This document shows, piece by piece, positions 24,635 through 37,574 of a stretch of DNA of 64,000 nt. A program made the translations under genes and the position numbers. A model generated the notes under the pieces. It had not been told where the DNA came from. It worked only from the letters and a program-made list of their open reading frames with translations, and did not search any database. Where the stretch lies: positions 62,001 through 126,000 of the forward strand of contig JAFGUB010000037.1 of the NCBI GenBank assembly GCA_016938735.1, written 5' to 3'. Each line of letters begins with the position of its first letter. The stretch's first letter is position 1. Source of the stretch: Campylobacterales bacterium (lineage in GTDB: Bacteria; Campylobacterota; Campylobacteria; Campylobacterales; Sulfurimonadaceae).

Positions 24635-25618
24635 TCAACGGATCGTTTGAAAAAACGACACACTCTTTTTCTTCGATCCCTGGCTGTCAATGAGTCCAAA
24701 ATACGACTCTGCCTCTTTGAAATATCCTACATGGCCCTTCACGTCATACAGATGAAAGGTGATCAAACCGATCAAATTTGCCTCTTGCTTCATCTGCTGC
24801 ACCAGTCGAGCGTAGCCTTGATACACTTCTGCTTGCAACGCCTCATCGCCATAACTAGAGATGGCCGCATACGCCAAAAAAGTGGGTTTTCGGTAACGTT
24901 GATGTAGATAAGTCGCAAAAGCGAGGGAGCGCTGCGGTGTATGTTTGATGGCGGCGCGGGTGTTGCGCGTCAAAGCACGCATCTCTTGAAATGCGATAAA
25001 GTCGAACGCTTCAACCGCATGCTCAATGCTTCGATGAAAGGCGGTAAAGTTATAGGGATCTTCGCTTTGTTCGTAATGACCGAAATCACCGACGCAAAAG
25101 CCTACTTTTGCCTTCGCGTCTTGACGTATCAGCGAGAGACTTTGCAATAAAAAGTCGTTGAAATAAGGATCGGACTCGACGCCGTTTTGATTAAATTCGG
25201 GATGCAGTATCACGACCTTCTCCCCGTCGATGCGGCGTAGATAAGCCACGAAGCGTTCTAAATAGTGACGATAAGCCAGCGCATCTTCTCGGATACGTTT
25301 TGGTGAGATGGCATCTGCGAAATAATAAACCATAAAAACGGGAAGATAGCCCTTGATGCGCAACTTTTGGTTGATCTCTTCTACCGGATACCACTGCTCT
25401 TGCCAATCAGAGGTAATCCACATCGCTACGGCGTTCACGTTTGGAAGTTCTGCACCCAAAGCATCGCCGATATTGCGTCGTTCACCCTTACATGTAGCAG
25501 GAATGAAGTGGGTGTAGCGCCCTTGAGCGTAGCATAGATCATATCCGCCCACACCTACCACAAAAGGAGACGCTGCCCAAAGTGCTGTACCCAGCAGCGA
25601 CACCGACCAAAACTTCAT
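24635..25618 (-). CDS. Secreted TIM-barrel glycoside-hydrolase-like protein of the exopolysaccharide operon
   Basis: A 327-aa protein with a signal peptide (FWSVSLLGTALWAASP). The fold looks like a GH26/GH-A-type TIM barrel: strands end in FMVYYFADA, VVILHPEFNQNG (a strand-end Glu at the usual acid/base position), KVGFCVGDFGHYEQ, FDFIAFQEM (second candidate Glu) and LIGLITFHLYDVKG. It is the last gene of the operon and overlaps the deacetylase (ATGA). A hydrolase that trims or releases the polymer, as PgaB's C-terminal half or PelA does in their systems, is a sensible inference. The substrate is not shown by the sequence. Confidence 0.65.
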   Translation of the reverse strand: MKFWSVSLLGTALWAASPFVVGVGGYDLCYAQGRYTHFIPATCKGERRNIGDALGAELPNVNAVAMWITSDWQEQWYPVEEINQKLRIKGYLPVFMVYYFADAISPKRIREDALAYRHYLERFVAYLRRIDGEKVVILHPEFNQNGVESDPYFNDFLLQSLSLIRQDAKAKVGFCVGDFGHYEQSEDPYNFTAFHRSIEHAVEAFDFIAFQEMRALTRNTRAAIKHTPQRSLAFATYLHQRYRKPTFLAYAAISSYGDEALQAEVYQGYARLVQQMKQEANLIGLITFHLYDVKGHVGYFKEAESYFGLIDSQGSKKKSVSFFQTIR

Positions 25619-27471
25619 TTTTGGTATTGCGCTACGAGTGTCATTTGGGCATGGGGCGCAAGTATCACCACCATGATGTCCGTATAGCGCTCTTTAAGAT
25701 TGGTAACGTAATGCACCTGTGCCCCCATGATCTCCGAACGAACGTCCAAAATCTCTTTGGCATTAGGCCAATAGAGCCGAAATGTGTAGTTGAATACCCG
25801 CTCGTCGTTAAGATTTTTGATGTAGATGAGATGATTTTTAACGGCTGTTTTTGCCGAAAGCTCGATCTTTTCATTCAACCTCAACCGCTCAACGATTCCA
25901 TCCCCGTTAAGGGGGTGGTATCTTTGATCCGATTTGAGGTACTCCATGTAACGTTTAACGAGCGCTATATTGCCTTCAAGACCCATTAAATGGGTGTGGA
26001 TACCGAAGTTGAAGATACCGTCAAGATCGGTAACGAAGCGGGTTTCACGCCGAAGTGCTTCAAAAATAGCGCTCTCGCTCCACTCCAAACTAACTGTATA
26101 GTGATAATCATCGGTTCCGAGTCGCCCGATTTCAAACAATCCATCTCGTTTTTGCGGATATATCGTGTCGTCAAGCTGTTTGAGCACATAGGTGTACCCT
26201 CCGCTACGCAGCTTGGAATGCATCGCAGCATCGAGCTCCTCTCTAGGCGGACGAAAACCCGTTACGACGGCGCCGCCGCTCATTTGTGTCAGCACCTCTT
26301 TAGACCTAATGATCTCTTGATGCAATCGCTCTTCAGATAGACTCGTCATGGATTGATGGCTGTAACTGTGTGAGCCGATCTCGACCATCGGTTCATTGTT
26401 GGCCCGCTTCATCAACCTCGGATACTTCAGTGCATCGGCTGCAATACAAAAGGCGGTTACAGGAATCTTTTGAGCAGCCGAAAGCGCTATAAATTGCTCA
26501 AGCTGTTCAAATCGGTATTCGGTATCTTGCGAAATCCACACCGCACTGTGTCGGTCAAGGTACGGATAGGCTCGCACGGTAATCTCGTGCGCTCCATAAA
26601 GTAAAACCCCCCGCAACAGCTCTGTAAATATGGGCTCTTGCTCCCCTTTTTCGGTAAAAAGATAGGACGGAAAAGAGACATAAACCCAATTGCCCTGACC
26701 ATAGCTGCCATGCCATCCCGCCCCGGCATGTTCGGGTAGCAGAGTTTTAAGTGGTGATTGATGGGGGGAGTTTAACGCCCAATTGGTCAAAAATAGATCT
26801 GGATGATGCTCTTGTGTATCAAACAAAGGAATGGGATCGTAATGGCTCAACAATGCACGTTTTCCGGGATTCAACTGGGCAGCCAGCGGAGAGAGCAAAC
26901 GGTTGACGATGAACGGCACCTCATCTGACGTGCGCGGCTTGGGCAGGTCTCCGACATAGCGCAATGAGGTCAGCGCCTCAATCGAACCGGCACCTACGTA
27001 CCCCTCATCACTGTTAAAGGCGTAATTGAAGTTAAAAAACATAAAACCGCCATTGCTGATAAACGTATTGATTTGCTCCAAGCTTCGGCGCGACAGATAG
27101 ACTGCGTCAAGCACCAACAGCATCTCATTACGGCCCAGCAGCGGTAGTTCTGACTCCTTGATGAAACGCACGTCGTAGCCCATCTCTTGGATGCGCGCGG
27201 CAATGTTTTGCAGACGCTGTGAGTATGCTTGCGGATCCATCCCATAGTTTCGATACTGCTGCATACTCTCTTCTGAACGCAAAAGCACCACACTGCGCTT
27301 TTCGCTCAACGGCGTCAACGCAAAAGAAGATTGAAAGTTTTGGAAAATTTGAAACACCACCCAACTGCTTCCCAAAAGTAAGATGAAGGTAGTGATCAGC
27401 GCTCCAACGGCGTAGGTGCCGGGAATGCGGCTTCGCTTACTCGAAGAAGAGATAATCTTTTCCGTGCTCAT
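25615..27471 (-). CDS. Membrane-anchored polysaccharide deacetylase (NodB-like domain)
   Basis: A 618-aa protein: membrane anchor near residues 20-42 (VGALITTFILLLGSSWVVF), a periplasmic alpha/beta domain up to ~residue 300 (VVLLRSEE, LLVLDAVYLSR, GGFMFFNFNYAF), then a NodB-type deacetylase domain. Its motifs are a metal-binding Asp in WISQDTEY instead of the usual TFDDG, the histidine pair in GSHSYSHQ, FRPPREEL and FGIHTH. The metal triad Asp-His-His thus looks intact and activity is likely. In PNAG systems deacetylation allows export through the porin. The start MSTEK overlaps the 58-aa gene by 35 bp; a start 27 codons upstream lacks support. Confidence 0.82.
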   Translation of the reverse strand: MSTEKIISSSSKRSRIPGTYAVGALITTFILLLGSSWVVFQIFQNFQSSFALTPLSEKRSVVLLRSEESMQQYRNYGMDPQAYSQRLQNIAARIQEMGYDVRFIKESELPLLGRNEMLLVLDAVYLSRRSLEQINTFISNGGFMFFNFNYAFNSDEGYVGAGSIEALTSLRYVGDLPKPRTSDEVPFIVNRLLSPLAAQLNPGKRALLSHYDPIPLFDTQEHHPDLFLTNWALNSPHQSPLKTLLPEHAGAGWHGSYGQGNWVYVSFPSYLFTEKGEQEPIFTELLRGVLLYGAHEITVRAYPYLDRHSAVWISQDTEYRFEQLEQFIALSAAQKIPVTAFCIAADALKYPRLMKRANNEPMVEIGSHSYSHQSMTSLSEERLHQEIIRSKEVLTQMSGGAVVTGFRPPREELDAAMHSKLRSGGYTYVLKQLDDTIYPQKRDGLFEIGRLGTDDYHYTVSLEWSESAIFEALRRETRFVTDLDGIFNFGIHTHLMGLEGNIALVKRYMEYLKSDQRYHPLNGDGIVERLRLNEKIELSAKTAVKNHLIYIKNLNDERVFNYTFRLYWPNAKEILDVRSEIMGAQVHYVTNLKERYTDIMVVILAPHAQMTLVAQYQK

Positions 27472-27613
27472 GGAGTACATCCTCGTAAGAAATCTGCTTT
27501 TTTTTGCGGTTCTTTTCCCGCGCTTTGTAAAGAAAATAGGCAATAACACCAAACACCAGCGTCATCAGCGAAATCACCAAAATGATCATCGACATAAAAG
27601 CAATAAAATCCAT
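27437..27613 (-). CDS. 58-aa single-span membrane protein between glycosyltransferase and deacetylase
   Basis: A short gene in a third frame: MDFIAFMSMIILVISLMTLV starts the protein, a single membrane helix runs to about residue 29, and a basic patch (KAREKNRKKKQ) and an acidic tail ending DYLFFE follow. The ATG is 12 bp after the glycosyltransferase stop, and the end overlaps the deacetylase start by 35 bp, so it fits the operon exactly. Position and topology suggest an accessory subunit of the synthase, filling the place PgaD has in E. coli, although PgaD is longer and has two helices. This is inference. Confidence 0.7.
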   Translation of the reverse strand: MDFIAFMSMIILVISLMTLVFGVIAYFLYKAREKNRKKKQISYEDVLHEHGKDYLFFE

Positions 27614-27625
27614 TGTTTACCTTTA

Positions 27626-28930
27626 TTAAATTTTTCCCTTGCGATCGAGCTTGCCCCATGTCATATCGAGCTGCAGCCACTCTTCCATAGTTGCGAAGAT
27701 TTTAGAAATATTGATGACCGTAATGAAATAAAGCCGATACAACACGGCATACCAAGCCAGATGCAGAGGTTCACGCGTGATCATCAAACAGTAAAGTGCT
27801 CCGGCGATATCCATCACGGTGTAGAGGATCCACCAATAGAAGATAAAGCTACTCGCTCCAGATTTGACCGCGAGATAGAGAAAAAAGAGATTCCCCCACA
27901 CGTCAAAAAAAGGCCAAAATATCGACTCAAAGAGCATGTACCACAAGACGAAGCTCATAGAGCGGTTCTGGCGCGGTCTCCAGAGGTAACCGCTGTGCTT
28001 GCGTATTGATTGCAAAATGCCTCTCGTCCAGCGATAGCGCTGCTTGATGAGATCAAGCAGCTGCTCAGGCGCTTCAGTGATCGCTAAGGCATCCGGTTCA
28101 AACTCAATCTTGTGCCCTCTCTCGATCAGCTTGAGCGTTAGATCGCAATCTTCGGCAAATGTGTCGCTGTCATACCCTCCCACAGCCATGACGGCCTCTT
28201 TGCGAAAGACCCCGATGGGTCCGGGGACTATGTTGACCAACTTTAAAAAAGCCTGCCCGTTGCGAACCATGTTGAGCCCCTCGATATACTCTAGGGCCTG
28301 TAAACGGGTGAGGGTATTGTCTCGATTACTGACATAGACCGATCCGGCCACGGCGGCGACCTCAGCATCGTCAAAATAGGGAACCATCAACTCGACGGCG
28401 TTGATCGACAACGCAGAGTCTGCGTCCACCACCATGATCAAATCGCCGGTCGCATGTTCCATGCCAAAATTGATCGCCCTTGCCTTACCTCCGTTGGGTT
28501 TACTCAGTACCCGCAACGAGCGTTCGCTCCCTTCAAACTCTAACGACTTCGCCCTTTTATACGTTCGATCTTTAGAGCCGTCGTCAACAACGATGATCTC
28601 AAGATTTCGGTAGCTTTGTCGCATCAATGAGCTCACCGAGGAGACAATGACATTCTCCTCATTAAATGCCGGAACGATAATAGAGACCCTATGTTCAGAG
28701 TGATCGTATAGCCCTCCTTGCTTCGCATCGGAGCTTTTTTGAATGGTTTTAAGCATTGAAAAGAGGATCAAAAAGAGATATCTGGTGATGATAATCAGCG
28801 ACATCACGAAAAGTACGATAACGCCGAATTTGACCAACCATGTATCAAAAATAAGATAGATATCGAGTAGATTGAAAACCGCGTAGATACCCATGACGGC
28901 AAGCAGCAGCATCAAAGGGACAATCCACAC
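27626..28930 (-). CDS. PgaC-like processive glycosyltransferase (GT2)
   Basis: A 434-aa inner-membrane synthase. Two N-terminal membrane helices precede the GT2 domain: VSIIVPAFNEENVI, IIVVDDGSKD, MVVDADSAL (DxD-type metal site), FAEDCDLTLKL (catalytic Asp) and QRYRWTRGI (the Q-x-x-R-W acceptor motif of processive synthases). Several membrane helices close the channel. Length and order match PgaC/IcaA, poly-beta-1,6-N-acetylglucosamine synthases, and not BcsA, which is longer and has a PilZ domain. Start at GTG with GGAG. The polymer could also be a different amino-sugar chain. Confidence 0.88.
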   Translation of the reverse strand: MWIVPLMLLLAVMGIYAVFNLLDIYLIFDTWLVKFGVIVLFVMSLIIITRYLFLILFSMLKTIQKSSDAKQGGLYDHSEHRVSIIVPAFNEENVIVSSVSSLMRQSYRNLEIIVVDDGSKDRTYKRAKSLEFEGSERSLRVLSKPNGGKARAINFGMEHATGDLIMVVDADSALSINAVELMVPYFDDAEVAAVAGSVYVSNRDNTLTRLQALEYIEGLNMVRNGQAFLKLVNIVPGPIGVFRKEAVMAVGGYDSDTFAEDCDLTLKLIERGHKIEFEPDALAITEAPEQLLDLIKQRYRWTRGILQSIRKHSGYLWRPRQNRSMSFVLWYMLFESIFWPFFDVWGNLFFLYLAVKSGASSFIFYWWILYTVMDIAGALYCLMITREPLHLAWYAVLYRLYFITVINISKIFATMEEWLQLDMTWGKLDRKGKI

Positions 28931-28940
28931 GCTTAGCTCC

Positions 28941-31900
28941 TTACCAACGGTACAATAAGTTCAACACACAATCGGTGTAATCATACCCGATGGCACCCAT
29001 ACCGTGTACCTCATCTATCGGCTCGTTACGCACACAACCTGCCTTGAATTTAAAAGGAGCCCCAATAGCCGATTGCAGGTGTAGGCCATAGCGTGCCATC
29101 CACTGCTCGTAACGCATCGATAGGCCAAAGCCCAATGTAGCTGCCAAGGAGAGATCACTACCGAGTCGATAAGCGGGCTTAAAGAGCAAAAAATGCGCAT
29201 CGTCGCCTTTAGGCGTATAGTAGTCGCGACTGCTGCCGCTAAGACGTTCATACCATCCCGAAAACATCACGTCCGTATCGAGGTATCGCCCATGCATCTG
29301 CACGAAACGCCAATCAAACATCACATTAAAAAGATAGTTGTCGTCATTGATGTAGGCCCATTCTAACGCACCCCACAGCGTGCCCGTGCCGATCCAATCG
29401 ATCGTATTGCTCAGACGCAGGGCATATTTTTCGATCCCTTTGTCAAGTGCGGCGAGTGTGTATTTACTCGCATAAAGATTTCGTTGATAGAGCTTGACGT
29501 TGTAGGTATTGCGGATGGGTCCTAAACCGTCTAAAAATCCGTCATAAACGCCGTGATAGCCCACATAAGGGCCATACGCGTTGCGCTCTTGATAGCTATC
29601 AAGTATCAAGCCTCCGCTCCATGAGCCATACTCCAACCCGATATGCCCCATAATGCCTTCAATCCATTCTGTTTGTCCAAAGCGTTTCTTTTGCAGTTTA
29701 AACAGCCCCACACCTACGATCAGCTTGAGCGGATCATACACGTTGACGCGCCCCATCACATCGCCGCTTTGAAACGACAGTGCATCGCTGTCGGCGTAGT
29801 ATTGCGCATTTAAACCTAAATCCACAGGATGCTTAAGGGTATTCGGTTGCACTTGGGCAGTAGTTGGCTGGGAGACTTGAAGCGGCGCGGCATCTTGCAC
29901 GGGGGTGCTCAATGCTTCAAGTTCGTTCGCCCTTCGGGCAATCGGATCTTCGCGGTATAAATTGATCGGCACCTCTTGAGGCGGGACGACCGTTTGGGCC
30001 TCATTTTGCGTGACGCTTATCTGCGTCTTTGCACGACCAAGACGCCTGATCCCCTCTAAAGCCGCGGCAACGATAGGGGTGCGCTTGGCCTCTAGTGCAT
30101 ACCAACTCTCGTGTTCTATCACACACGCTGTCGCGTCACAGACAAGCACAAGTTCTTTAAATCCGCTGTCGGTACGCTGTAATGCACGGTACTCCTGCCA
30201 AAAACGCAGTGTAAAACGATTGAGGCTCAGATCTTGCGAGATGATCCTAGGTGCTACAACGTCCACTTTGATAGAGCGGTTTTGTGCAAATAACTGCTTT
30301 TTTTGCTCGATCCAGGCAGGGGCAGGTTTGAGGTAATGAGACGCATAGTGATCCAAACGACGCGCCTGCCAACTCGCTTTCCACGACTCCAGCAGCCTTA
30401 CATGTAAGGGCCCAAGCGCTAGGGTTTGCTCTTGTTGATACAGCAGCGAAAAGTACAACTTCTCCGCCTCATCGAAGCGGCTTGTTTCAAACAATGTGTG
30501 CGCGTACATCAAGGCCAAATCGCTGTGACGCAGCGCAAATAAGGGGCTATCTTGCGCCTCTTCGCTGTTGATGATCTGCTCAAAGCGAAGCGCAGCTTCC
30601 GTATATTGGGCTGATTGATAGAGATTGTACGCCGCATGGTACGCTAATGAACGGTTTTGGGGTGACGCATCATACAAAGCGGTATAAACCTTTGCTGCCT
30701 TCTCATGAGCGCCGCTTTGTTGAAGCGCGTAGGCATATTTTTGAGCGATGGTATCTGTTGACTGCACCAAGCCTAGGTCGGATTCAAAAAGCGGCACGCT
30801 TTGCGCATAAGCACCTTTTTCATAGAGTGAGAGTGCTTTATGAAGCGCTGAACTGCCTGTTTGAATCGGCTCTTTTGAAGAGGATCGACTGCGGGCCTCT
30901 TGTAAGGCCTGAGCCAGCTCCGTGTCGTTTGGAAACTGCTCTTTGAGTGCTTCAAAGCGGGCGCGGGCGCGATCATAGTCACCACTCCACAGCCACACAT
31001 ACGCACGGGCCCGCTGCACATCGTAATAGAGCTGCGCAAAGGGATCAAGAGACTCGATACGGTCCAAAGCGTCATGCGCTTGTGCAAACGCACCTTGCCA
31101 ACTGTAGAGTCTTCCGAGCTTCAGCCAGGTCTGCGCATCTTTCTCACGTATGCGCTCATAGTGCGTGATCGCTTCAGCACTGTCGGCATTCCAAAAAGCC
31201 AAATCTGCTCTGTAAAGCTCAAGCTCTTGCGAAGTACCGAACCGTTGTTCATGTTTGTTTAAGTACTCTAAAGCGTGTTGATATTGTTTGCGTTGATGGA
31301 GCGCGTCACACAGCGTGCGCAGATGAGCTAAATCGCTTTGCGCCTCATAAGCGGCACGATAGGCTTCAAGCTTTTGTGTGCGTAGTTGCTCTAAACGCGA
31401 CAAAAGCGCTTCTCGTTTGGTTTCCAATCTAGCACTACCCTCATAGGCTTCAAGTAGATGAGCCGCCTCTTCTTCTTTTTGGGCATCCAGATACATCTGC
31501 GCCGCCAAAAGACGGTCTTGTTCGACGCCTTGACGTTCAAAAAGACGCCCATAAGCCTCAGCCGCGCAGAGATAATTCTGCTCTTGTGCGCAAAGCTTGG
31601 CTTCGATAAGATCAAAGCGCTCAGCGCTGCGTTTGCTTTTCAGCCCCTCAAAAAGCATACGAGCTTGGTGTATTTTGCCCTCCTCAAGCATCACCGAAAC
31701 TCCATGCATGCGTATCTCATCGCTTAAGCGCTGCTCATGGGCCAAAAGATAGTTCAGCAATATGTTTCGCTCTTGATGACGCGCTTGAAAGCTCAGCTCT
31801 TGCAGTTTAGCTTCGAAACGATCCACGGGATCAGAGGGGAGCAATCCGAAGGTGTGAAGCATCTGATGCTCTTCTTCATACTTACTTAACCGAAGGCTTA

Positions 31901-32132
31901 GCAGCTTAGCCTCAGAAGCTTCAGGCATAATCTTTTGGGCTTCTTGAAGATAGTGACGGCTTTGATTGAGATCGTCTCTCTCAAGATAATAGCGTCCCAA
32001 AAGCAGCATCGACCGGTAGTCTGTAGGATTAGCCTTAATATTTGCCTCCCACTCAGCCACATCATACTCTATTGCATACACTGCGCCGATGCCGTTCAAA
32101 AGCGATAGAAGCAATAGGGCACTTTTAAGCAT
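28941..32132 (-). CDS. PgaA-like outer-membrane exporter: TPR superhelix plus beta-barrel
   Basis: A 1063-aa protein: signal peptide (LKSALLLLSLLNGIGAVYA), then about 600 residues of TPR-type helical repeats (for example YRSMLLLGRYYLERDDLNQS and LKLGRLYSWQGAFAQAHDAL), a linker, and from about residue 760 a beta-barrel ending DYTDCVLNLLYRW. This is the plan of PgaA and BcsC, which guide a polymer through the periplasm and outer membrane. The start overlaps the receptor gene by 8 bp; a longer frame (25 more codons) reads inside that gene. A TTACATGTAA copy lies at 30398 (PLHVRLL). Confidence 0.82.
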   Translation of the reverse strand: MLKSALLLLSLLNGIGAVYAIEYDVAEWEANIKANPTDYRSMLLLGRYYLERDDLNQSRHYLQEAQKIMPEASEAKLLSLRLSKYEEEHQMLHTFGLLPSDPVDRFEAKLQELSFQARHQERNILLNYLLAHEQRLSDEIRMHGVSVMLEEGKIHQARMLFEGLKSKRSAERFDLIEAKLCAQEQNYLCAAEAYGRLFERQGVEQDRLLAAQMYLDAQKEEEAAHLLEAYEGSARLETKREALLSRLEQLRTQKLEAYRAAYEAQSDLAHLRTLCDALHQRKQYQHALEYLNKHEQRFGTSQELELYRADLAFWNADSAEAITHYERIREKDAQTWLKLGRLYSWQGAFAQAHDALDRIESLDPFAQLYYDVQRARAYVWLWSGDYDRARARFEALKEQFPNDTELAQALQEARSRSSSKEPIQTGSSALHKALSLYEKGAYAQSVPLFESDLGLVQSTDTIAQKYAYALQQSGAHEKAAKVYTALYDASPQNRSLAYHAAYNLYQSAQYTEAALRFEQIINSEEAQDSPLFALRHSDLALMYAHTLFETSRFDEAEKLYFSLLYQQEQTLALGPLHVRLLESWKASWQARRLDHYASHYLKPAPAWIEQKKQLFAQNRSIKVDVVAPRIISQDLSLNRFTLRFWQEYRALQRTDSGFKELVLVCDATACVIEHESWYALEAKRTPIVAAALEGIRRLGRAKTQISVTQNEAQTVVPPQEVPINLYREDPIARRANELEALSTPVQDAAPLQVSQPTTAQVQPNTLKHPVDLGLNAQYYADSDALSFQSGDVMGRVNVYDPLKLIVGVGLFKLQKKRFGQTEWIEGIMGHIGLEYGSWSGGLILDSYQERNAYGPYVGYHGVYDGFLDGLGPIRNTYNVKLYQRNLYASKYTLAALDKGIEKYALRLSNTIDWIGTGTLWGALEWAYINDDNYLFNVMFDWRFVQMHGRYLDTDVMFSGWYERLSGSSRDYYTPKGDDAHFLLFKPAYRLGSDLSLAATLGFGLSMRYEQWMARYGLHLQSAIGAPFKFKAGCVRNEPIDEVHGMGAIGYDYTDCVLNLLYRW
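30398..30407. repeat. TTACATGTAA palindrome, coding copy
   Basis: Exact copy (14-bp CCTTACATGTAAGG) in the PgaA-like gene, read as PLHVRLL. It is the only exact copy inside the exopolysaccharide operon. Confidence 0.9.
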
Positions 32133-33471
32133 CCGGCGCAACAGCTTCCTCCATGCCAAGAAGACTAAGCGAAGAATCAATTTGACGCATATGCTCCACA
32201 ATGACATTGCTATGTGCGACCGTCATGTTCAAAAGCATCAGCGTCAATCGCTCCTCATGTGCTACAAAACAGTATACATCGCCGGGACGCTTGAGAACGG
32301 AAGCCATCCGATCTGCATCAATCGCTGCGGCTTGATAGTTAATGCACACAAAAAAGACACGGGCTTCAAGACACGCTTGTTTGTATTGTGCAAAACGCTC
32401 TTGATCCATCACCGTCACATTCGGCACGATGGCGTCCAGTCGTCGTGAATAGAAAGGATCGCGCAAAAAGCGTTCAACGGAGGTGATCAACGCTTCAAAA
32501 TTGAAATCACGCTCAAACAGATCGTGACAACGGCTGGCATTGGCCAAGCGTCGATCCGAATGTCGAATAAAGGACTTTCCGGTCACATAAATGATCTGTG
32601 TTTTGAACTTTTGCTCTTGAACCGATCGACATAACTCAAAGCGACCGGCATCCAAAGCGCTCTCTTTGGTTGCAAAGACAAGAAGATCAGGATTGCTGAT
32701 CAGACGCGAAAGAATGAGCGAAAGATTGGCTTCGACGCGCTCGACCTTGAATAGTGCCGAATCAAAAAGATAAGCGATGCGGTCTAGGTTTTCAGTATCA
32801 TCTCCGGCCAGCACGACATGCCAAAATTTCGGCTTTTGCGCCTCTTGTGAAGCTTCATCGAGAGGTTCGCATCGGTAGATGCCCTGCGGTAGTAGGGCAA
32901 AGGAAAGGCTCTTGAATCCAAGAGGTTGAATCGAAAAAAGGATGTCAAGCGTTGAAACACCGCTGTTGCTTGTGCGTACATGTAGATCCAAATCGATATG
33001 GTGATGAAAGGCTTTCAAAATACTTTTAGAAAAATTTTGTTCGATATCGATTGTAAACAGAAGCTTTTTTTGAGCGCTTTTGCACAAGCGGATTAAGGTA
33101 TCGATAAAGGCTTCGACCTCATTGCCGTCATGCAGTTCAAAAAAATCTCCAAGACTGTGGATCACGATAATCGGCTCAGATGAAGTGTTGATCATCCGCT
33201 TTAGATCCTCATACATGAACGCATAGCCGTACAAATGTTTTTTCTCTTTCCAATTAGCAGCCAGAGCAAGCAGTTCAACACGTTCATGCAGACGCTCCAT
33301 CTCTTTGGCCGTAATCACCTTTTTAAAATACTCCCTCGAATAGCCGGTTAAAAGCTGTGCACGCATATTTATTGATTCAAGCAGATATTCCACCAGGGCC
33401 AATACAGCACTTTGACGCTCTCCTTGAATGCAGACGCAATCAGCTTGACTGACAGATTGATACAACGGCAA
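32125..33471 (-). CDS. BcsE-like c-di-GMP receptor with degenerate GGDEF domain
   Basis: A 448-aa soluble protein, first gene of the exopolysaccharide operon. The N-terminal ~200 residues look RecA-like without a P-loop (SEPIIVIHSLGDFFELHDGN, KKLLFTIDIEQN). Residues ~214-337 resemble a receiver (FWHVVLAGDD, NPDLLVFATKE, TQIIYVTGKS). The C-terminal domain aligns with a shortened GGDEF domain: RPGD at residues 395-398 stands where the c-di-GMP inhibitory-site RxxD should be, and AHEER (404-408) replaces GGDEF, so it should bind but not make c-di-GMP. This three-part order is that of BcsE, whose GIL domain uses RxGD. Start is TTG with a strong AAGGAG site. Assignment rests on pattern, not on a database match. 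Confidence 0.68.
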   Translation of the reverse strand: MPLYQSVSQADCVCIQGERQSAVLALVEYLLESINMRAQLLTGYSREYFKKVITAKEMERLHERVELLALAANWKEKKHLYGYAFMYEDLKRMINTSSEPIIVIHSLGDFFELHDGNEVEAFIDTLIRLCKSAQKKLLFTIDIEQNFSKSILKAFHHHIDLDLHVRTSNSGVSTLDILFSIQPLGFKSLSFALLPQGIYRCEPLDEASQEAQKPKFWHVVLAGDDTENLDRIAYLFDSALFKVERVEANLSLILSRLISNPDLLVFATKESALDAGRFELCRSVQEQKFKTQIIYVTGKSFIRHSDRRLANASRCHDLFERDFNFEALITSVERFLRDPFYSRRLDAIVPNVTVMDQERFAQYKQACLEARVFFVCINYQAAAIDADRMASVLKRPGDVYCFVAHEERLTLMLLNMTVAHSNVIVEHMRQIDSSLSLLGMEEAVAPDA

Positions 33472-33521
33472 AGGATCTCCTTTATCGATTCAAAACACAA
33501 ATTTGAGTGAACTTGAAAGCT

Positions 33522-33612: not shown

Positions 33613-35286
33613 TTATCTGTAACGCGATCTAAGCCCTAGATGCGCCGTCTTTGAGCGCAGATCACGCATAAAGGCGTCGCCGGGGTCGCGTTTATGTGTG
33701 ATGTAGGCTTGATCCCTCTCCAGCCACAGCGGGCTGTCGCGCCACTGCTGATACTCGTGATGCCCTATAAGATACTCGATCCCTTCAAAGCGCGATTGGA
33801 GATAGCCAACCAGACGCGCATTGGTCTCAAGCTGGGCGGGGGTGAGATCCTCTTTTTCGTTCCCTTCACCGCCGACGTTTTCGATGCCGATCGCGTGGTA
33901 GTTGAGCCCGATGACATGGCGTGCCATGGTGCGCTCATCCATCAGCCGATAGATCGTGCCGTCTCGATCCACCAGAAAATGGGCCGAAACATTCAGTGCG
34001 CCCGAGGCGGCAATGTCGCCGCGGTCTTTTAAAAGCCGCTCAGGCTTGAGCCGCGCGTACGCCTCTTCAAGGCTCTTGGTGGCCGTCCAGTGGATGACGA
34101 TCATACGCGGTTCAATGCGGGCATCCTCTACATGTAAGCCGTAGTGCGCCTTGATGTAGGCTCTGCTCAGCGCTTCACGCTCCGGCCCGAAATCAATCGG
34201 CAATAAGCGAATGGTGCGATGTACATGTAAGGCTTCGATACGGCGGTTGGCCTCTTCGATCCGTTCGCGCGGCACCTCTTTATCCTCGATCAGCTCCTTG
34301 ATCGTCTCGATGATCAAAGGCAGCGGCGTATACGCCAGTTGATTCCCGAACAGCAGCATGTCCACGCCGGAGTTGATCGCGCGCCTTAGGCTCTCTTTGA
34401 GGCTGTAGTGCGCGCTGATCGCCTTCATCTGCAGATCGTCGCTGATGAGCACCCCTTTAAATCCGAGCTTGTGACGCAGTAGCTGCGTATTGATCTTGTA
34501 CGAGAGGGTTGCGGGAACGTCCGGATCGAGGGTGCGGTTGAAGACGTGCGCACTCATGATCGCCTGCGCTTTGCCGGATTGAATCAGCGCGGCGTAGGGT
34601 TCAAGCTCTTGGGGCGTCCACGTCTGCGTCACATCTACAAACCCTTCGTGCGAATCGCCGCGTGAAGAGCCGTGCCCCGGAAAGTGCTTGAGCACCCCTA
34701 CGACCCCCTTGTCGCTCATGGCGTCAAGCATCGCCGTCGCGTAGCGGCCAACCTTGACAGGGTCACTGCTGTAAGCGCGCTCCAGCTTGGCGATCACGGG
34801 ATTATCGGGGTTGACGGCAAGATCGACAACGGGCGCGGCGTTGAGGGTGATGCCCGCTTCGCGCAGCATCGCGGCCATCACATCGTAGTGCGCACGCGCC
34901 TCTTGAACCGGAAGCGCCGCCATCTGCGCCGCCGAGGGGGTATGCACAAACCCGTCACGCGCTTTGAGCCGCTCGACCCTGCCCCCCTCCTGATCGATCA
35001 TAATGAACATCCGCCCCTTCGAGGCCTCATGCAGTATGCTACAGAGCGCTTGGAGCTGCTGGGGATCGCGGACGTTTTTGGGGCGGGTTCGGTCACGGTA
35101 ATCGCGGTCAAACAAGATCACGCCGCCCAGATCGTAGCGCTTGATCTGCGCTAAAAGCGTCGCATTGCGCTCCAGACTCAGCGCGTCAAAACCGACGATC
35201 ACCATGCGCCCGATCGCGCGTTCCAGCGCAGCGTCGCCCCAAAGCAAGGGATAGCAGGCCACCAAAAGCAGCCATGCTTTGATCAT
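33613..35286 (-). CDS. Periplasmic NagZ (GH3) - peptidoglycan amidase fusion
   Basis: A 557-aa protein with a signal peptide (IKAWLLLVACYPLLWG). Residues ~20-345 are a GH3 beta-N-acetylglucosaminidase of NagZ type: IDQEGGRVERLK, LKHFPGHGSSRGDSHEGF (with the catalytic His loop) and the nucleophile Asp in GVLISDDLQMKA. From ~385 an Amidase_2 domain follows: MIVIHWTATKS, SAHFLVDRDGTIYRLMDE, IGIENVGGEG and YLIGHHEYQQW, the zinc site of N-acetylmuramoyl-L-alanine amidases. The two activities usually reside in separate NagZ and AmpD/AmiD proteins. The ATG overlaps the GGDEF-EAL stop (ATGA). Two palindrome variants lie at 34128 and 34221. Confidence 0.9.
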   Translation of the reverse strand: MIKAWLLLVACYPLLWGDAALERAIGRMVIVGFDALSLERNATLLAQIKRYDLGGVILFDRDYRDRTRPKNVRDPQQLQALCSILHEASKGRMFIMIDQEGGRVERLKARDGFVHTPSAAQMAALPVQEARAHYDVMAAMLREAGITLNAAPVVDLAVNPDNPVIAKLERAYSSDPVKVGRYATAMLDAMSDKGVVGVLKHFPGHGSSRGDSHEGFVDVTQTWTPQELEPYAALIQSGKAQAIMSAHVFNRTLDPDVPATLSYKINTQLLRHKLGFKGVLISDDLQMKAISAHYSLKESLRRAINSGVDMLLFGNQLAYTPLPLIIETIKELIEDKEVPRERIEEANRRIEALHVHRTIRLLPIDFGPEREALSRAYIKAHYGLHVEDARIEPRMIVIHWTATKSLEEAYARLKPERLLKDRGDIAASGALNVSAHFLVDRDGTIYRLMDERTMARHVIGLNYHAIGIENVGGEGNEKEDLTPAQLETNARLVGYLQSRFEGIEYLIGHHEYQQWRDSPLWLERDQAYITHKRDPGDAFMRDLRSKTAHLGLRSRYR

Positions 35287-37574
35287 GAATGCCCTCCGCA
35301 AACGCCTCGATGGTGCGCCATCAGACGCTCGAAATCCTGTACCTCCAGCGGTCTGCTGCAGAGATAGCCCTGATAATATTCGCATGAACGCTGACGCAGA
35401 AAATCGAGCTGATCATGCTGCTCGACCCCCTCAGCAACCACTTCAAGGCCAAAGTTTTCAGCAATGGTAATGATGGTGCTGACCAGTTCGCGGTCATCTT
35501 CGTCGATCACCAGATCCTGCGTGAAGGAGCGGTCGATTTTGAGGGTGCTAAAGGGGAGTTTTTTGAGATAAGAGAGCGAAGAGTAGCCCGTACCGAAGTC
35601 ATCGATGGACAGACCGACACCGTGTTCGCGCAAGGCATGCATTTTGGCGGCCACTTCATCGACATCGCTGATCACCACCGACTCGGTCAGCTCCAGCTCC
35701 AAAGCGCCGCTGGGCATAGCATAGCGTTCCAGCAGCATAAAGACATCGGAGACAAAGTCGGGACTCCCAAACTGCTTGCTGCTCACATTAACCGCGATGC
35801 GTCGAATCGGCGTTTGGCCGCGCCACTGCATAAACTGTCGGATCGCCTCCTCAAGCACCCAACGCCCCAGCTCCACAATCAGACCGCTCTCCTCAGCCAC
35901 GGCGATCATCTCCAAAGGAGCAATAAACCCAAGCTCGCTGTGGTTCCAGCGCAGCAGTGCTTCGGCGGCGACAATCTCACCCGTCGCTATCTCGATGATG
36001 GGCTGATAATAGAGCTGCAAAGCGCCCTGCTTGATGGCCGGACGCAGCGCATTTTCAATGACCATGAGCCTTCGGATGCGGAAATCCATCTGCTCTTGAT
36101 AGAGGCGGCTCATCCCCTTGCCGTCACGTTTGGCCTGATACATCGCCGTGTCGGCATGCTTGAGCAGATCGTCCACCCGCTCTTCGCTCTCATGCATCAA
36201 CACCATGCCGATACTGGTCGAAACGCTCAAAAAGCGGCCGTCGATTTCAACATCTTCGCCAAAGGCGGCGTGAATACTCTGCGCGGCGCGCTCCATCCGC
36301 TCCAGCGCATCGTGGCGGTTTCTGCCCAGATGGGGCAAGACGATCACAAACTCGTCTCCGCCGATGCGTGCGAGCATATCGCGCTCATCCAGGGTGTGCT
36401 TGAGGCGCAAAGCGACTTCGCACAGCAAAGCGTCGCCGACGGTATGGCCCAGCGAGTCGTTGATGGTTTTGAAGTTGTCCAGATCCAAAAAAAGCACCCC
36501 AAAAAGGATGCGCTCTCTAAAGAAGCGCACCATCTCCTGATTGATCCGCTCGATGAGCATGGTGCGGTTGGGGGTGTCGGTGAGGGTATCGTGGCGTGCT
36601 TGATACTCGATTTGACGAATGAATTCAAAGCGCTCCGTCACATCGTTGACGATACCGATGCCTCCAATCACTTGCCGCTCCAGATCGAGCAGCGGAGCGG
36701 TGCGCAGGTGAATAAAAAGCTGTCGGTTAAGATATTGCGTCTGATACTCCCCCTCGTAATTTCCCTCTTCGCCATCGATGGCTTTGATGATGACAGGCAC
36801 AACCCGCTGATCAGATAGCTTCAAGAGCGGCAAACCGATAAGATAGGACTCTGGCGTACCCAAAATAGTACACAACTCCGCATTCACCTCGACAATGCGC
36901 AGCGACGGATCATAAAAGAAAATTCCAACGGGTGCTTGCGACACCATGGTGCTCGAGCGCTCCTGAGAGAGGTGCAGCTCTTTGCGCTCGCGCTCGTAAA
37001 GTCGGCGCGTCTCGGTCAGATCGACATAGGTACGGTAGATGCGTCGGGCCATCACCAAAAGCATCAGGATAAAGAGCGCCACAAAAAAGGAGAGTACCCA
37101 GTAGTACCCCTGAGCCTCCAGCATCAAACGCAGCAGTAGCGGCGTCATCGCCAGCACGATAAAGATACGCACCGCCTTTAGGTGTGCCGCAAGGCTACTG
37201 ATCGAACCTGCGCTCATGCCCGAAAGCACTACGATCAGCACCGCCTGATGCAGCGGATCTTCAGCATCGAAGAGCAAGAACCCCGCACTGCCCCACATTA
37301 AGCCAGAGAGCACCACCCCAACCAGAAAGAGACGCTCCCACATGCGCACACTGCGCCGCTGCGGATCTTTGCGGTACTCCAGATAGAGCCCCAAACGCCA
37401 AAGCGATATCGCAAAAAGCAGGACGATCCAGCCGACCAGAAGAGGACGCTGCGGAATGTCCCACAATAAGACGCCGATAAAAAAACCATTCAGAACAATG
37501 GCCAGCAAAGAGACGTTGAGCTGTTGATATGAGAGCGCAAGCGCCTCTTTGTGGCCATCTTCGGAGAGTTTCAC
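35283..37574 (-). CDS. Membrane-bound GGDEF-EAL c-di-GMP enzyme with PAS domain
   Basis: A 763-aa protein: about five membrane helices up to residue ~180, a PAS domain (MVSQAPVGIFFYDPSLRIVE) near 205-320, a GGDEF domain with intact active site ARIGGDEFVIV and DLDNFKTINDSLGH, and an EAL domain with AAEALLRWNH, FGTGYSSLSYLKKLP and VVAEGVEQ. Both halves keep catalytic residues, so it may make and degrade c-di-GMP. No RxxD is seen five residues before GGDEF (ERDMLARI), so the product feedback site is absent. Start GTG with AGGATT. It is coupled to the NagZ-amidase gene and sits just upstream of the exopolysaccharide operon. Confidence 0.93.
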   Translation of the reverse strand: MKLSEDGHKEALALSYQQLNVSLLAIVLNGFFIGVLLWDIPQRPLLVGWIVLLFAISLWRLGLYLEYRKDPQRRSVRMWERLFLVGVVLSGLMWGSAGFLLFDAEDPLHQAVLIVVLSGMSAGSISSLAAHLKAVRIFIVLAMTPLLLRLMLEAQGYYWVLSFFVALFILMLLVMARRIYRTYVDLTETRRLYERERKELHLSQERSSTMVSQAPVGIFFYDPSLRIVEVNAELCTILGTPESYLIGLPLLKLSDQRVVPVIIKAIDGEEGNYEGEYQTQYLNRQLFIHLRTAPLLDLERQVIGGIGIVNDVTERFEFIRQIEYQARHDTLTDTPNRTMLIERINQEMVRFFRERILFGVLFLDLDNFKTINDSLGHTVGDALLCEVALRLKHTLDERDMLARIGGDEFVIVLPHLGRNRHDALERMERAAQSIHAAFGEDVEIDGRFLSVSTSIGMVLMHESEERVDDLLKHADTAMYQAKRDGKGMSRLYQEQMDFRIRRLMVIENALRPAIKQGALQLYYQPIIEIATGEIVAAEALLRWNHSELGFIAPLEMIAVAEESGLIVELGRWVLEEAIRQFMQWRGQTPIRRIAVNVSSKQFGSPDFVSDVFMLLERYAMPSGALELELTESVVISDVDEVAAKMHALREHGVGLSIDDFGTGYSSLSYLKKLPFSTLKIDRSFTQDLVIDEDDRELVSTIITIAENFGLEVVAEGVEQHDQLDFLRQRSCEYYQGYLCSRPLEVQDFERLMAHHRGVCGGHS

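Follow-up and report, generated by a model that had tools for sequence, protein, structure and literature searches.

A BcsE-type receptor as putative c-di-GMP input of a synthase-dependent exopolysaccharide operon in Campylobacterota

Analysing a 64,000-nucleotide stretch of a Campylobacterales genome (contig JAFGUB010000037.1, positions 62,001 to 126,000, hereafter the window), we characterised a six-gene operon that we read, with a probability of about two in three, as a synthase-dependent exopolysaccharide secretion system with a BcsE-type receptor as its c-di-GMP input. Its gene accompanies that of a membrane GT2 synthase having no PilZ domain, and the predicted assignment of a BcsE-type sensor to a non-cellulose synthase is well supported by homology and gene context. 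The receptor is probably the c-di-GMP switch of the operon.

Organisation of the operon and its neighbourhood

The operon comprises the following features, given in order of transcription with the evidence in brackets.

32125..33471, minus strand: putative BcsE-like c-di-GMP receptor, 448 aa (model, PDB fold search, BcsE profile match)
Within the receptor: degenerate NTPase domain at residues ~1-205, REC* at ~214-337 (also found by profile) and GGDEF* at ~340-443
32554..32565, minus strand: first RxxD motif, R303HSD306, in REC* (alignment of 24 homologues)
32278..32289, minus strand: second RxxD motif (I-site), R395PGD398, in GGDEF* (alignment of 24 homologues)
33477..33482, minus strand: AAGGAG, resembling a ribosome-binding site, before the TTG start of the receptor (sequence)
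28941..32132, minus strand: TPR/beta-barrel exporter (TPR families in Pfam, conserved family)
27626..28930, minus strand: membrane GT2 synthase without PilZ (Pfam, NCBIfam, alignments, tree)
27437..27613, minus strand: 58-aa single-pass membrane protein with a conserved aromatic C-terminal tail (kept in all loci)
25615..27471, minus strand: membrane-anchored CE4 polysaccharide deacetylase (Pfam Polysacc_deac_1, alignment)
24635..25618, minus strand: secreted TIM-barrel protein, glycoside-hydrolase-like (model with pLDDT 91, PDB fold search)

An earlier note on this DNA had described six tightly spaced genes in this order, and their reading frames, strand and coordinates were all confirmed: adjacent and co-oriented, the genes overlap or lie at most ~12 bases from their neighbours. 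The receptor starts with a TTG codon, and a start correction was needed for the exporter and the deacetylase only. The exporter frame opens at 32207, with a likelier start at M26 (32132), a residue invariant in relatives, while that of the deacetylase opens at 27552, with a likelier start at 27471. No riboswitch was detected by Rfam at or near the operon, and scans of the operon for promoters and terminators gave results no better than shuffles. Its G+C content (48.5%, versus 53.7% for the whole window and 55-59% for the tested neighbouring genes) hints at a horizontal acquisition.

The components that the earlier note had proposed around the synthase were recovered with their expected characteristics. 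The exporter matched TPR families and belongs to a conserved family; its repeats resemble those of BcsC, a resemblance of little weight given how similar TPR repeats are to one another. The 58-aa membrane protein is conserved and single-pass; judged by eye, it consists of a single hydrophobic segment followed by a basic linker and a conserved aromatic tail, of which a YxFFE-like form is kept in nearly all loci. The deacetylase is a membrane-anchored CE4 enzyme (Polysacc_deac_1, E=2.3e-18) in which the motif residues H395, H399, R434 and H521 are invariant. The secreted hydrolase-like protein, which falls in no Pfam family, yielded a confident TIM-barrel model close in the PDB fold search to clan-A glycoside hydrolases (GH53, GH26, PslG), in which E141, following strand 4, and the Q211-E212 pair of strand 6 are invariant.

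Downstream, the operon is followed by a convergent leucyl-aminopeptidase-like gene. Upstream lies a gene (33613-35385) encoding a GH3 (NagZ-like) domain fused to an N-acetylmuramoyl-L-alanine amidase, with a similar protein in L066 only among the fetched loci, and a PAS-GGDEF-EAL gene (35283-37574). GGDEF-EAL genes also occur near several related operons (L033 2731-4836, L034 14719-16794, L036 2719-4827 and L042 3756-5813), possibly as a local c-di-GMP supply, or possibly by chance as such genes are common. The genome of the window (2.85 Mb) contains 82 GGDEF-domain matches, revealing an unusually large c-di-GMP network.

A distant BcsE homologue at the head of the operon

The window receptor had no match in Pfam and no meaningful match in NCBIfam or in a single-sequence search of the PDB (phmmer), and a single-protein scan of genome contigs returned none either; its relationship to BcsE is visible by family alignments and structure only. 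The AlphaFold2 model (mean pLDDT 86.8, pTM 0.59) contains the GGDEF-like domain anticipated earlier, and its five best PDB matches were E. coli BcsE chains (9fp0, 9fnn, 9fo7, 9fp2), followed by KaiC. Full-chain TM-scores to BcsE were ~0.3, the match being one of domains in order and not of one rigid superposition; these low scores and the pTM reflect a domain placement that differs or is uncertain. The alignment of 24 family members matched response-regulator receivers by profile at ~217-337, and one member matched KaiC. Using hhalign, the family aligned weakly with E. coli BcsE alone (E=0.013), collinearly over 388 columns with a profile of nine BcsE sequences (E=3.7e-5), and over 401 columns at 90% probability (E=1.4e-6) once a Burkholderiaceae BcsE was included, while a control comparison using the deacetylase profile gave E=0.76.

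Model, fold search and profiles thus agree on the NTPase*-REC*-GGDEF* domain order of BcsE, and the receptor carries both BcsE RxxD motifs, the I-site in GGDEF* and a second one in REC*. R303HSD306 aligns with R306ATD of E. coli BcsE and R395PGD398 with R415TGD. In E. coli BcsE, the two RxxD motifs together bind dimeric c-di-GMP as one composite site (PMC11470070), a single I-site being described in PMC7439463. The GGDEF signature has been lost (AHEER in the window protein), which fits a receptor rather than an enzyme. Neither the window receptor nor its Campylobacterota relatives reached the cut-off of PF10995 (BcsE), and the bcs cellulose genes are not encoded alongside the receptor in the operon loci surveyed; we therefore class it as a BcsE homologue and not as BcsE proper. 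That it is a distant homologue of BcsE is highly probable, in line with the earlier proposal of a BcsE-like receptor heading the operon, and judging from its motifs it is likely to bind c-di-GMP.

A receptor reduced to a degenerate scaffold that does not bind c-di-GMP, or one that senses another ligand such as a nucleotide in its N-terminal domain, is improbable. This domain does resemble KaiC, and a P-loop-like motif is kept in some relatives and lost in the window protein. However, the four residues that align with the c-di-GMP-binding residues of BcsE (R303, D306, R395 and D398) are invariant in 24 of 24 homologues, some of them with only 14% identity to the window protein, despite the loss of the GGDEF signature.

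Recurrence of the gene set and identity of the synthase

The neighbourhood survey that had been proposed as a check (200 genomes of the order searched, 20 neighbourhoods retrieved) revealed a conserved gene order: divergent Campylobacterales share the succession of receptor, TPR barrel, GT2 synthase, small membrane protein and deacetylase, often followed by the hydrolase. The synthase is the most conserved protein of the operon (55-62% identity), and the receptor, encoded by the first gene, is poorly conserved (~21-28% identity in the 200-genome search). A scan across genomes, with the deacetylase as seed, produced 35 loci, in most of which the gene set recurs, extending it to many Campylobacterota and several Gammaproteobacteria; all six genes are present in a Methylococcales MAG, Marinobacterium jannaschii and Pontibacterium sinense. 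Owing to this recurrence in divergent Campylobacterales and in most loci of the genome-wide scan, the association of the six genes is far above chance. A second architecture places the TPR barrel before the receptor, GT2 synthase, small protein and deacetylase, and the hydrolase is absent from it. A distant version of the operon (L084 4540-10138) encodes the TPR barrel, synthase, small membrane protein and deacetylase on a contig with no detectable receptor and with a Ser/Thr-kinase-like gene upstream of the operon.

Among 397 Campylobacterota genomes, those with a full-length receptor (profile match with E below 1e-90) and those with the deacetylase are exactly the same 11, a co-occurrence with a hypergeometric chance of ~1e-21, not corrected for kinship. 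Short matches to the receptor profile in many genomes were not counted as receptors, as they cover positions ~200-360, the receiver domain only. This perfect co-occurrence, together with the absence of BcsB from 13 of the 16 receptor-carrying genomes, makes it highly implausible that the receptor mainly serves a separate cellulose synthase and that its position in the operon is incidental, even though a separate contig of the window's genome carries a cellulose operon and this genome contains no second full-length receptor. Cross-talk with this cellulose operon is possible. The latter (contig 43, L124 1656-11944) encodes a BcsA above the CelA cut-off, BcsB, BcsZ and a BcsC-like protein, and no PilZ domain was found in its BcsA by Pfam at E<=0.001. 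In one Campylobacterales family, orphan BcsE-like receptors (L047 18250-19515, L048 12665-13972, L049 5175-6491 and L050 12603-13403, the last missing the N-terminal domain) keep the tandem RxxD motifs; they lie in a conserved neighbourhood of housekeeping genes that includes none for exopolysaccharides.

A Burkholderiaceae MAG links this gene set to BcsE as recognised by Pfam. One of its contigs encodes in a row a deacetylase, a BcsE (199.5 bits in Pfam versus a cut-off of 25) and a TPR protein before the contig ends, and a second contig, overlapping the first by 127 exact bases, encodes a synthase, a small membrane protein and another deacetylase. This synthase is 47% identical to that of the window and belongs to the same family. 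The overlap would thus place a Pfam-recognised BcsE in an equivalent position, next to a synthase of this family; the genome being a MAG, we infer from sequence the joining of the two contigs into one operon. This BcsE is the sole PF10995 match of the genome, the BcsB and PilZ genes of which lie on another contig. The deacetylase of this operon had no match among plasmids.

As the earlier note had stated for the synthase, Pfam detected no PilZ domain, either there or in any other protein of the operon. The description of the synthase as PgaC-like stands in that PgaC/IcaA (PgaC_IcaA) is the best named family, and falls short in that the synthase scores less than half the cut-off (193.9 versus 422.3 bits), outside the PgaC/IcaA equivalog, and that the operon synthases form one separate clade (99/99) when placed in a tree alongside PgaC and BcsA of E. 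coli, both of which are long branches. The synthase is the only Pga-like protein of the operon, none of whose products specifically matched PgaA, PgaB or PgaD. The earlier designation as a PNAG-type operon is consequently not established. The presence of a deacetylase suggests a polymer of N-acetylated sugars, probably an N-acetylated amino sugar (N-acetylhexosamine).

PgaC and PgaD bind c-di-GMP directly. A divergent pga operon, in which the synthase and the 58-aa protein would bind c-di-GMP themselves to produce PNAG, with the BcsE-like protein as a mere enhancer, would agree with the strong alignment of PgaC (31% identity), with PgaC/IcaA as the named family that the synthase matches best and with the presence of both a deacetylase and a hydrolase, as in PgaB. 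The low family score, the separate clade and the missing matches to PgaA, PgaB and PgaD argue against it, and we hold it to be rather unlikely, if the most credible of the alternatives weighed here. The deacetylase and hydrolase were also considered as a split PgaB, and this was rejected as they are separate proteins with no specific PgaB match.

Proposed mechanism and known systems

Returning to the BcsE-type receptor as c-di-GMP input, we consider it likely that the receptor controls the synthase of its operon. Dimeric c-di-GMP would be clamped between REC* and GGDEF*, and the cytosolic tail of the 58-aa protein would anchor the receptor at the membrane, like BcsF with BcsE. The closed receptor would then switch on or stabilise the synthase, an activation by proxy of an enzyme without direct c-di-GMP site, and the polymer would be trimmed by the membrane-anchored deacetylase, exit via the TPR barrel and be cleaved or set free by the secreted hydrolase. 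In E. coli, the cytosolic tail of the single-pass peptide BcsF recruits BcsE by beta-sheet complementation with its N-terminal domain (PMC11470070). The 58-aa protein shares the BcsF-type anatomy, being short, single-pass, with a cytosolic tail and encoded with the receptor, and showed no sequence similarity to BcsF (hhalign E=0.37) or to PgaD; by analogy, the odds that it recruits the receptor may be put as even. BcsR and BcsQ are the route by which BcsE acts on BcsA. As neither partner was found in the operon, the receptor must contact its synthase differently from BcsE.

The operon thus combines traits of several systems. It shares with the E. coli BcsE-BcsF pair (type II Bcs) a sensor that has the NTPase*-REC*-GGDEF* order and tandem RxxD motifs and is separate from the synthase, and a short single-pass membrane partner in the same operon, but differs by its PgaC-like synthase without PilZ, by the absence of BcsR, BcsQ, BcsB and BcsG from the operon, by a receptor below the PF10995 threshold and by a small protein without sequence similarity to BcsF. 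With the Pga/PNAG systems (pgaABCD, hmsHFRS) it has in common the TPR-barrel exporter, GT2 synthase, small membrane protein and CE4 deacetylase, whereas PgaD is missing, deacetylase and hydrolase are separate, the synthase is only 31% identical and a separate receptor is the putative c-di-GMP input. In the Listeria Pss system (PssA-E), a PgaC/IcaA-like synthase (~30% identity to IcaA and HmsR) is likewise accompanied by an I-site receptor encoded apart from it, PssE, without which no polymer is made (PMC4125290); Pss, however, has a BcsB orthologue, of which none was found beside the synthase in the window operon, and its GGDEF-domain receptor has another architecture. Pel resembles the operon in having no PilZ and a degenerate GGDEF protein with an RxxD motif, PelD, as c-di-GMP input, although PelD, which contains a GAF domain, is a membrane protein and works with the GT4 enzyme PelF (PMC8461298). 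Given the precedents of Listeria PssE and Pseudomonas PelD, the hybrid control logic that the earlier note had regarded as undescribed is not new in principle, and is new in its parts.

In the full-text literature searched, which covered published open-access papers, we found no BcsE outside a cellulose (Bcs) context and no paper combining Campylobacterota, exopolysaccharide and c-di-GMP. This recurrent operon of the Campylobacterota is apparently undescribed. In cellulose systems, BcsE acts as a secondary sensor next to a synthase that itself senses c-di-GMP with its PilZ domain, making the contribution of BcsE hard to isolate; a BcsE-type sensor beside a PilZ-less synthase makes the activation by proxy that has been proposed for BcsE testable by itself. 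There is an even chance, in our estimate, that Campylobacterota and some Gammaproteobacteria possess an undescribed amino-sugar exopolysaccharide system for which a BcsE/BcsF-like module with tandem I-sites provides the only c-di-GMP switch. If so, the BcsE sensor would be a portable control module and not a cellulose accessory.
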